Part shown: piece after piece, positions 5,967 to 13,000 of the stretch | Layout of the letters: each line of letters begins with the position of its first letter | Position numbering within the stretch: the stretch's first letter is position 1 | Assembly (NCBI GenBank): GCA_029262235.1 | Contig: JAJCZU010000004.1 | Location: forward strand, 835,330 to 899,329 | Source of the DNA: Candidatus Eiseniibacteriota bacterium | Lineage (GTDB): Bacteria > Orphanbacterota > Orphanbacteria > Orphanbacterales > Orphanbacteraceae | Reading direction: 5' to 3' | DNA length: 64,000 nt | Notes under the pieces: generated by a model | Told to the model about the DNA's origin: nothing | Seen by the model: the letters and a program-made list of their open reading frames with translations, nothing else | Database searches by the model: none | Made by a program: the position numbers and the translations under genes

Positions 5967-6350
5967 ATGAGAAGTGCCGGGAAGATTCTGGGAATTTTTT
6001 TGATCATTGCGTTCATGGCGTGTCCGCTGGCGAATGCTTCGGAAACGCAGGTGCTCAACAGTCAGGAACTTACTCTGAAGATGGTCGAGCGCGAAGCCGA
6101 TGACGACGCCCTGCGTGCCGGCATCCGTACGCTGCTCGAGCGACCCGAGGTCAGCGAAGCCGCTTCGCTGCTCGGTCATGATGCGAATCGCCTGGCCGAC
6201 CGTGTCGAAACCCTCGAAGGGGAAGCGCTGACGGATGCGGCCGCTCGCGCCGCCGCCGTGCAGGATGCGCTCGTCGGAAGCGACAGCGTCATCATTATCA
6301 GTTCGACGACGTTGATTATCATTCTGCTGCTTATTCTGATTCTTGCGTAG
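5967..6350 (+). CDS. PA2779-like small secreted or membrane protein
   Basis: The protein has 127 residues. It has an N-terminal signal or membrane segment (about 6-22), a helical acidic middle including 'RTLLERPEVSEAASLLG', and a strongly hydrophobic C-terminal helix of Ile and Leu (about 106-127). This layout (signal, short helical region with a '..V...L..LG' motif, terminal membrane helix) matches the PA2779 family of small proteins, which normally sits directly before a PA2778-type C39 peptidase, exactly as here. The function of the family is not established. GGAGG lies 8 bases before the ATG. The stop codon overlaps the next gene by 8 bases, so the two are one operon and probably translationally coupled. 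Confidence 0.7.
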   Translation: MRSAGKILGIFLIIAFMACPLANASETQVLNSQELTLKMVEREADDDALRAGIRTLLERPEVSEAASLLGHDANRLADRVETLEGEALTDAAARAAAVQDALVGSDSVIIISSTTLIIILLLILILA

Positions 6351-8544
6351 GCACCGGATCTCCGGTCAGGCCGGCTCACCGGCGGAAGTCGAACCTTTCG
6401 CCGGTGAGCGTCTTCCTTCCGTCCGCCGCCGCCCCTGTTTTTTCCTCTGCGGTATCCTGGTCTCCCTGCTGACGCTGCTTCTGCCGGGGCCGACCCGCGC
6501 GTTCGGCGCGGCCGATCGCGCCGCGGTTCACGACGTCCCGTATTTCGCCCAGACTCCGCGCCTCTGTGGTGGAGCGGCGGCGGCGATGCTGCTTCGTTAC
6601 CACGGGGACCGCGCCGCCCGTCCGCTCGGCTTCACTTACCTGCTCGATGCCAGTCGTCGCGGGATTGCGACGACGGCTCTCGCGGACGGTGTCCGCAGTC
6701 GCTCGTTCGTCGTCGATGCCGGTGACGGCCGCACGATGCGCCAGTTGCAGGAACGGCTGCGTACGCGACCGGTCGTCGTTCTCGTCGCCGCGGGCGGAAA
6801 GGATCAGTATCACTATGTAGTCGTACTCGGGGTTCGGGACGATCACGTGATCGTGCACGACCCTGCCGTCGGGCCCGGGCTGTCGCTCGCCGGGGATGAG
6901 TTCCGCGCGCGATGGGAGAAAGCGCGACACTGGATGCTCGATGTCCGGCCCGCGGCGGCGGAGAGTACGCAAACCACGGAAACCACGGAAACGGCGCACC
7001 CCCGATCCCCGGAGACCCCGCAAGCCCCGCAAGCCCCGCGAACCCCGCGAACTACCGATCGCACGCTTCAACCCGACGATCAGAAGACGCCTGCGCCCGA
7101 TTCCTGCGAGATCGAAGCGGTACGCGCGGTCGCACTCGCCCGCGCCGGACATCTCGATGCTGCCGGGGATCTGCTGAGCGCCCTTGCGGATCGCGGCTGT
7201 GCCGGGGCGTGGCGCGAACTCGCTTCGGTAAGGATTCTGGCTGACCGGTACGAAGATGCCGTTGCCGCCGCTGAGAATGCGGTCGCCGTCCGTGCGGACG
7301 ACGATCACGCCCGGGACGTTCTCGGAACGGCGCACTACCTGCGCGGAGACACGCCCGCCGCGCTCCGCGCCTGGAATCGGATGGGGCGACCGCTCGTGTA
7401 CTCGTTTTCTGTGAGCGGGGGCAGCCCCCGCACGCGCCGCACGGTTCACACGGGCACGCCCATCGCCCGCGACTCGATGTTGACGGCGTCCTCGCTCCGT
7501 CATGCGGTCCGCCGGGCGCGGGCGCTTCCGTCCGTTGAAACCGCTTCGGTCCGCATCTCCGCCGCCGCGCCGGGGGAGGTTCACGTGCGGGCCGTGATCG
7601 TCGAGCGGGCGCCCGCCCGTTCGGAGTTGTTGCGAACGGCGCTGCGTGCAACGGCGGACCGGGAAGTGCGGCTCGTGTTCCCGAGCGGTCTCGGGCGTGC
7701 CGATGTCTGGGAAGCGCGTGCCCGCTGGTGGGCGCGTGCGCCGAGTTTCGAACTGTTTCTTCATGTGCCGGACGCCCCGAAGCGCGGGTGGGTTCTTGAA
7801 GCGGGGGGAGGACGGGATCGCCAGTGGTACCGCACGGCGGGCGCGGGCGTCGTCGAAGAGCGGACCCGGACCGCCGGTATCGCGGCTTCGTCCTGGATCG
7901 CGTCCGATCATCATCTGCAAGTGGGGCTTCGTCATTTCGAAAGTGAATCGCGCGCGCGCGGCGGCAGGCGTTCCCGCGATTTCGTTTCCGTCGAACTCGG
8001 ATGGCGGGCATCGGCGCTGCACGACCGGCTCCGGTTCGGCGCCCGAGTCGCGCCCTGGTTCGTACCGGGTGACGGCCGTACGCTTGTCCGCGCTTCGCTG
8101 TCCGGTTCGTTTCGGCTCGAAAAGTCGCGGCGGGCCGATCTTGCGATCCGGGCCGGCGGCGACTGGGTCGACGCGAACTCTCCCCGCTACCTGTGGACGG
8201 GCGCGGGTACCGGGCTCGGAAGACCCCACCTGTTTCGCGCGCACCCCCTGATCGAGGACGGCACGCTCGATGGGCGCGCGTTCGGGCGTTCGCTGTTGTT
8301 CGCCGGGCTCGAGGCGACGTTCTGGCGATCGTTCCCGGGGTTTCCGGTCGGGGTGGCGACGTTCGCGGACGGCGTCTCGTCCGCCTCCGAACCCGGCGCG
8401 GCCCCGTTTCGATGGGATGCCGGGGCCGGCGGGCGCATCGCCGTTCCCGGGACGACCGCGGTTCTCGCAGTCGACTGGGCGCGCGGGCTGAACGACGGCC
8501 AGGAAGCCGTCTCGGCCCGTCTTTATTCGATCTCACAATTCTAG
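6343..8544 (+). CDS. C39-type (PA2778-like) peptidase fused to TPR, POTRA-like and Omp85-like outer-membrane barrel
   Basis: This is a 733-residue multidomain protein. Residues 31-55 look like a signal peptide. Residues 60-200 form a C39 cysteine-peptidase domain with the expected residues present: Q70, C75 (QTPRLCGGAAAAM), H157 (QYHYVVVLG) and D173. A Thr/Pro-rich linker with short tandem repeats follows (about 205-250). Two TPR-like helix pairs lie at about 255-345. A POTRA-like beta-alpha unit lies at about 380-425 (SVETASVRISAAAPGEVHVR). From about 430 on there is beta-barrel pattern, with a VRGF-like segment (GRAFGRSLLFAGLEATF) and a final strand ending in Phe (ARLYSISQF). Known PA2778 proteins have only the peptidase and TPR parts. 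The only start in this frame is TTG 6343, because TGA lies 6 bases before it; translation is presumably coupled to the upstream gene. The barrel assignment is from pattern and is less certain than the peptidase. Confidence 0.75.
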   Translation: MRRHRISGQAGSPAEVEPFAGERLPSVRRRPCFFLCGILVSLLTLLLPGPTRAFGAADRAAVHDVPYFAQTPRLCGGAAAAMLLRYHGDRAARPLGFTYLLDASRRGIATTALADGVRSRSFVVDAGDGRTMRQLQERLRTRPVVVLVAAGGKDQYHYVVVLGVRDDHVIVHDPAVGPGLSLAGDEFRARWEKARHWMLDVRPAAAESTQTTETTETAHPRSPETPQAPQAPRTPRTTDRTLQPDDQKTPAPDSCEIEAVRAVALARAGHLDAAGDLLSALADRGCAGAWRELASVRILADRYEDAVAAAENAVAVRADDDHARDVLGTAHYLRGDTPAALRAWNRMGRPLVYSFSVSGGSPRTRRTVHTGTPIARDSMLTASSLRHAVRRARALPSVETASVRISAAAPGEVHVRAVIVERAPARSELLRTALRATADREVRLVFPSGLGRADVWEARARWWARAPSFELFLHVPDAPKRGWVLEAGGGRDRQWYRTAGAGVVEERTRTAGIAASSWIASDHHLQVGLRHFESESRARGGRRSRDFVSVELGWRASALHDRLRFGARVAPWFVPGDGRTLVRASLSGSFRLEKSRRADLAIRAGGDWVDANSPRYLWTGAGTGLGRPHLFRAHPLIEDGTLDGRAFGRSLLFAGLEATFWRSFPGFPVGVATFADGVSSASEPGAAPFRWDAGAGGRIAVPGTTAVLAVDWARGLNDGQEAVSARLYSISQF
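6374..6409. repeat. Perfect 11-bp inverted repeat at the start of the C39 gene
   Basis: Arms GCTCACCGGCG and CGCCGGTGAGC are separated by 14 bases and lie 24 bases after the stop of the PA2779-like gene. Followed by CTTCC rather than a T-run, it is a poor terminator. It might attenuate or stabilise the downstream message. Confidence 0.5.

Positions 8545-12782: not shown

Positions 12783-13000
<218 letters not shown>

Follow-up and report, generated by a model that had tools for sequence, protein, structure and literature searches.

Organization of the locus

We analyzed a 64,000-nucleotide stretch of DNA (the window) from a Candidatus Eiseniibacteriota bacterium, for which an initial annotation, made without database searches, had proposed a C39-type peptidase fused to TPR, POTRA-like and Omp85-like barrel parts and coupled to a PA2779-like protein. 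Both open reading frames were found where that annotation had placed them (Table 1), and the two genes overlap by 8 bases. The ATG of the partner gene is preceded by GGAGG, and the TTG at 6343 is the only usual start codon ahead of the signal peptide of the large protein. The signal peptides of both proteins were read from the sequence by eye, without a predictor. Fold, profile and Pfam data support the proposed arrangement, including its PA2779-like partner: the large protein is a C39 peptidase followed by about three TPR repeats, one weak POTRA domain and an Omp85 barrel.

Table 1. Features of the gene pair (positions within the window)
Feature	Position	Strand	Details
Partner, PA2779-like, 127 aa	5967..6350	+	ATG start; signal peptide ~residues 1-24, helical middle, C-terminal hydrophobic tail
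Gly104-Ser105 of partner, double-glycine-type, proposed C39 cut site	6276..6281	+	Aligned G[GAS]; no cleavage data
Partner hydrophobic tail after the site, DSVIIISSTTLIIILLLILILA	6282..6347	+	Uncharged after leading Asp
C39-TPR-POTRA-Omp85 fusion protein, 733 aa	6343..8544	+	TTG start
Probable signal peptide of fusion protein, ~residues 28-53	6424..6501	+	Hydrophobic stretch, by eye
C39 peptidase domain, residues 62-193	6526..6921	+	Pfam PF03412 and PF13529 above cut-off
TPR region, ~residues 252-345, six helices	7096..7377	+	Weak Pfam TPR; helices in model
Single POTRA-like domain, ~residues 350-425	7390..7617	+	Collinear profile alignment; low model confidence
Omp85-type beta-barrel, ~residues 441-729	7663..8529	+	Foldseek PDB matches TamA/BamA/FhaC; hhalign
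R632, lid-lock Arg of loop L6 (FRAH)	8236..8238	+	Invariant in 24/24
D676, lid-lock Asp of FxD	8368..8370	+	Invariant in 24/24

The peptidase and TPR half

The C39 domain was matched by Pfam at 1.4e-9. The peptidase residues that had been read from the sequence, Q70, C75, H157 and D173, are all present, and these positions are kept in each of the 10 C39-bearing proteins checked. Pfam TPR matches were weak in the window protein and stronger in its homologs. Nearly the whole NF033920 (PA2778) model aligned, end to end, with residues 62-315, scoring 47.3 bits, which is under its curated cut-off of 150 bits. In its N-terminal half the large protein looks like a whole PA2778-like protein, which is followed by about 390 further residues. 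Classic PA2778 members have no barrel and extend for only 138-269 residues past the active-site region, in agreement with the earlier description of the established pair. A sequence search of solved structures returned only weak C39 and TPR matches for the fusion protein.

The POTRA and Omp85 half

The window protein and a Latescibacterota relative (L015) were modeled with AlphaFold from six sequences each, with mean pLDDT values of 68 and 72. In Foldseek searches, all of the 50 best PDB matches listed for either model were Omp85 proteins (TamA, BamA, FhaC and CdiB), with TM-scores of up to 0.68 over the TamA barrel. Fifteen barrel strands, rather than 16, were assigned in the models, 10 before loop L6 and 5 after it as is usual in Omp85 proteins; confidence was low for the N-terminal half of the barrel and for the POTRA domain, which is degenerate and was modeled with a beta-alpha-beta-beta topology. 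In hhalign, a profile of seven fusion C-terminal parts matched the aligned Omp85 proteins of the window's genome with 98.1% probability (E 8e-14) over 361 collinear columns spanning POTRA and barrel, whereas the controls (an alignment of TonB barrels, five shuffled versions and the profile in reverse) reached at most 0.3%. When the fusion profile was run over other genomes, 9 of the 10 proteins tested carried Pfam Omp85/POTRA, and the profile aligned either at the last POTRA domain of BamA-like proteins or at L6 and the last strands. The C-terminal part is an Omp85 protein with one POTRA domain, and the earlier reading of a POTRA-like unit and a barrel was borne out both by the fold, in two models, and by the profile comparison.

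The details on which that reading had been based fared unevenly. Its VRGF-like segment does contain the lid-lock Arg of L6, but the motif is FRAH and not VRGF, and the C-terminal Phe, which had been offered as evidence for a barrel, is not conserved among the homologs. None of the 24 aligned homologs departs from the lid-lock Arg (L6) and Asp (strand 13); relative to the patterns (V/I)RG(F/Y) and (F/G)xDxG, RA is found in place of RG and, in most cases, FxD(G/A/V) in place of FxDxG. Pfam PF01103 (gathering score 24 bits) did not match the window protein and gave weak matches (E 0.005-0.012) in 2 of 7 family members, so that ordinary annotation would probably overlook this protein. No ShlB/POTRA_2 Pfam match was found in the window protein or the homologs checked, and the motif is of the FxD type rather than the GxDxG of TpsB proteins. 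A viral fold library yielded nothing relevant. Besides the two fusion copies described below, the window's genome has eleven PF01103 Omp85 matches.

Occurrence of the fusion in other genomes

The C39 fusion was observed at at least 19 loci in three bacterial groups. They include a second copy elsewhere in the window's genome, and further fusions occur in G031, in G006 and in Gemmatimonadetes and Candidatus Latescibacterota records. The fusion was present in 5 of 80 genomes of the phylum of G031; in the phylum of G513, the barrel part was detected in 20 of 395 genomes, with further fusions among these 20. It should be noted that the surveys cover available genome sets only and that the two largest scored few candidates per genome. 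Some fusion loci are cut by contig ends, and the G006 fusion is split over two contigs.

A PA2779-like open reading frame lies directly upstream at all 19 fusion loci and, when the 10 loci without C39 are included (see below), at all 29 related loci. Other neighbors vary among the loci read (an MscS-like gene, a small outer membrane protein, a GGDEF-like protein, a sugar transferase-like protein), and inspection of the immediate neighbors by eye revealed no other shared one in these loci. The suggestion of a self-contained device is thus supported in the form of a two-gene module. The 8-base overlap, which is real in the window, is not conserved among loci; for example, L015 has a gap of about 11 bases.

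The second pair in the window's genome (G000:C3:539437-541910; L002, L089) groups with the G006 and Latescibacterota copies (100/97), and the window copy forms a long deep branch in the tree. Transfer or an old duplication are both possible explanations for these separate placements. In G006, a 584-aa POTRA-plus-barrel-like gene (L013, 1322-3076, minus strand) converges on the fusion gene.

The partner protein and its double-glycine-type site

The window partner scored 28.1 bits against NF033919, under the curated cut-off of 40 that was met by the second-copy partner of the same genome (42.7) and by the G031 partner (41.2). In an alignment of 37 PA2779-type proteins, compiled before the Gemmatimonadota survey, the aligned dipeptide immediately before the hydrophobic tail was G[GAS] in 31 (GG in 27, GA in 3 and GS in one, the window partner), compared with a background of 1.1% for such dipeptides at other positions of these proteins. 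Both site columns are among the five most conserved in the alignment. Partners of C39-bearing proteins have the site in 19 of 19 cases (18 GG and the GS of the window). C39 peptidases are known to cut after GG, GA or GS (PMC10885120), and the GS of the window is therefore an allowed variant. The hydrophobic residues near the site fit the classical -4/-7/-12 C39 pattern only at -4, with -8 in place of -7.

The tail that follows the site is 22-25 residues long in ten fused loci, with an uncharged part of about 20 residues. Tails of classic PA2779 proteins usually continue into, and end in, basic residues; in contrast, the tails of Omp85-linked partners reach no more than 1-2 residues beyond the hydrophobic stretch, and a basic C-terminus is mostly missing. 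Tandem or repeated PA2779-type genes, some of them short-tailed, were seen in several genomes (L032/L051, L043, L076-L084).

A clade without the C39 domain

Ten Gemmatimonadota loci encode a TPR-POTRA-Omp85 protein without C39 and retain the partner. In a tree that took in the nine of these loci that were complete enough, the C39-less proteins formed one clade (100/100) nested among C39-bearing ones, and a single loss of C39 is accordingly the simplest reading of these sequences. Other relatives of this C39 domain were absent from 8 of 9 C39-less genomes; one genome of this clade has such a relative in a 773-aa frame elsewhere (G730:C80:37269-37622, L136).

The C39-less partners keep the tail (e.g., TITISVYTVIIILLLLILLT), and the site becomes QNR, QRN, LSR, SLG, SAG, QGG, RGG or SGG. 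A hydrophobic-x-G[GAS] arrangement was found at 0 of 10 C39-less loci versus 17 of 19 C39-bearing loci, and any G[GAS] near the tail at 4 of 10 versus 19 of 19. Thus, the site follows the peptidase, and the type of tail follows the barrel. This co-loss amounts to one evolutionary event and one comparison, not ten, and Fisher tests on the site were set aside for that reason.

Comparison with known systems

The PA2778/PA2779 pair (NF033920, NF033919), whose function is unknown, likewise consists of a C39-TPR protein beside a small exported protein with a G[GAS] site and tail; our literature searches found no functional study of it. Since C39 occurs in these classic pairs in the absence of a barrel, the basic reaction does not depend on one. 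The closest known design is that of the patatin-like Omp85 proteins PlpD/FplA (type Vd), in which an enzyme domain is likewise followed by one POTRA domain and an Omp85 barrel (PMC4104836, PMC11116518). PlpD is a phospholipase and lacks TPR, whereas the fusion is a peptidase with TPR; C39 stands in the place of patatin, for which Pfam gave no match in the window protein. No dedicated small partner of PlpD is described in the sources consulted, in contrast to the neighbor-encoded partner of the fusion.

A barrel of the Omp85 type with a neighbor-encoded partner is also found in two-partner secretion (TpsB proteins such as FhaC and CdiB). These have two POTRA domains, a plug helix and a large beta-helical partner, whereas the fusion has one POTRA domain, a peptidase and a partner of about 127 residues, and its beta-13 motif is of the FxD type, as in BamA and TamA, and not the GxD of FhaC. 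BamA and TamA share with the fusion the barrel fold, the lid-lock Arg-Asp and the last POTRA domain, but they have several POTRA domains and no enzyme. Finally, in the Fap amyloid system a periplasmic C39 peptidase, FapD, works with an outer-membrane export barrel, FapF. FapD is required for export through this barrel and its target is unsettled (PMC5557850). The two are separate proteins, unlike the fusion, and FapF is a trimeric 12-strand autotransporter-like barrel.

Proposed mechanism and alternatives

We propose that a double-glycine peptidase, held in the outer membrane and facing the periplasm, cuts the partner encoded next to it, and that the barrel anchors the enzyme and perhaps receives the tail; in our judgment, the arguments for and against this model are about evenly balanced. 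POTRA domains lie in the periplasm, and this rule, together with the periplasmic enzyme domain of PlpD and the periplasmic action of FapD, is what leads us to infer a barrel-held periplasmic peptidase. The large protein would sit in the outer membrane through its single-POTRA Omp85 barrel, with the C39 peptidase and the TPR arm on the periplasmic side. The small partner would be exported by Sec and held by the TPR and POTRA parts, and the peptidase would most likely cut it after GG/GS, parting the helical part from the uncharged hydrophobic tail. The barrel would anchor the enzyme and would probably receive, insert or export this tail, whose fate, like the cleavage itself, is inferred. That the partner is the substrate of its own peptidase is inferred because the site is conserved and is lost in the peptidase-less clade. 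It should be noted, however, that there are no cleavage data and that a simple hinge ahead of a membrane helix could also account for the GG. An extended form of the model, which we regard as rather unlikely, is a miniature two-partner pathway, in which the barrel of the same chain inserts or exports the freed, uncharged tail of about 20 residues, possibly a surface-forming peptide. Within such a pathway, the C39-less clade would represent a simplified version that handles an uncut partner.

The main rival explanation, rather doubtful in our opinion, casts the partner as an adaptor or activator in the inner membrane: its tail stays there, its helical part binds the TPR arm, the barrel-held peptidase cuts other envelope proteins, and the GG serves as the hinge leading into the membrane helix. 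The tail has sufficient length for such a helix, the basic ends of classic PA2779 tails are typical of an inner-membrane anchor, the partner and the Omp85 protein stay paired even without C39, and the recognition pattern at the site is non-canonical. However, a hinge leaves unexplained both the preference for GG, GA and GS and the loss of the site with retention of the tail in the C39-less clade, and the partners of the Omp85 class mostly lack the basic C-terminus. C39-like domains that lack activity are known from type I secretion (cited in PMC5557850), and it is conceivable, if improbable, that the C39 domain here does not cut and instead binds the partner and presents it to the barrel; the retention of Q, C, H and D in every protein checked, together with a cut-type site in the partner, speaks against this.

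It is still harder to credit that the barrel serves to deliver C39-TPR to the cell surface, where it would act outside the cell. This would correspond to the layout of enzyme, POTRA and barrel as first proposed for type Vd PlpD, but the enzyme domain of PlpD was later shown to remain in the periplasm (PMC11116518), and the likely substrate of the fusion is encoded next door and exported. We give practically no weight to the idea that there is no true fusion or that the C-terminal part is some other barrel, for which only the failure of PF01103 on the window protein and its marginal values in relatives could be cited. A frameshift or mis-assembly joining two neighboring genes, which the initial annotation had named as a possible refutation, is rejected by the same fusion at 19 loci, and an unrelated, non-Omp85 barrel is refuted by the fold matches and by hhalign, in which the controls were clear. 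Neither of the two outcomes that the initial annotation had listed as refuting it was obtained.

Relation to the Omp85 superfamily

Members of the Omp85 superfamily serve to build outer membranes and to export proteins, and to our knowledge few enzyme-bearing kinds are known. Among the ten subfamilies set out in a survey of the superfamily are patatin-like and metallo forms; neither "peptidase" nor "TPR" appears in the text of that survey (PMC4104836). Our full-text searches, whose coverage was partial, found no paper describing C39 with Omp85, and the lack of a hit is not proof. The present proteins constitute an Omp85 subfamily that bears a peptidase and is joined to the PA2778/PA2779 module, for which we found no earlier description; also new is the double-glycine-type site that is kept, right before an uncharged tail of about 20 residues, in the partners of C39-bearing proteins. 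With a peptidase on the barrel and a candidate substrate dedicated to it, these proteins extend the Omp85 group by a new branch and give the unexplained PA2778/PA2779 pair a testable role, with the clade that lost both peptidase and site as a natural control. They also bear on the targets of periplasmic C39 enzymes such as FapD. A promoter of the PA2779 family was listed among candidate strong constitutive promoters in Pseudomonas stutzeri (PMC10155442), which would fit an abundant substrate.

Two other features of the window were observed. A secreted repeat protein is encoded at 196-2607 on the minus strand, and its C-terminal NPFNPTTSIRFSLP...SGIYFYKL segment resembles, on reading of the sequence only, a type IX-like sorting domain. 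At 12800-12980, a run of about 70 bases, almost all G, is followed by a GGAAG-rich tract; this low-complexity region is possibly an assembly or sequencing feature.
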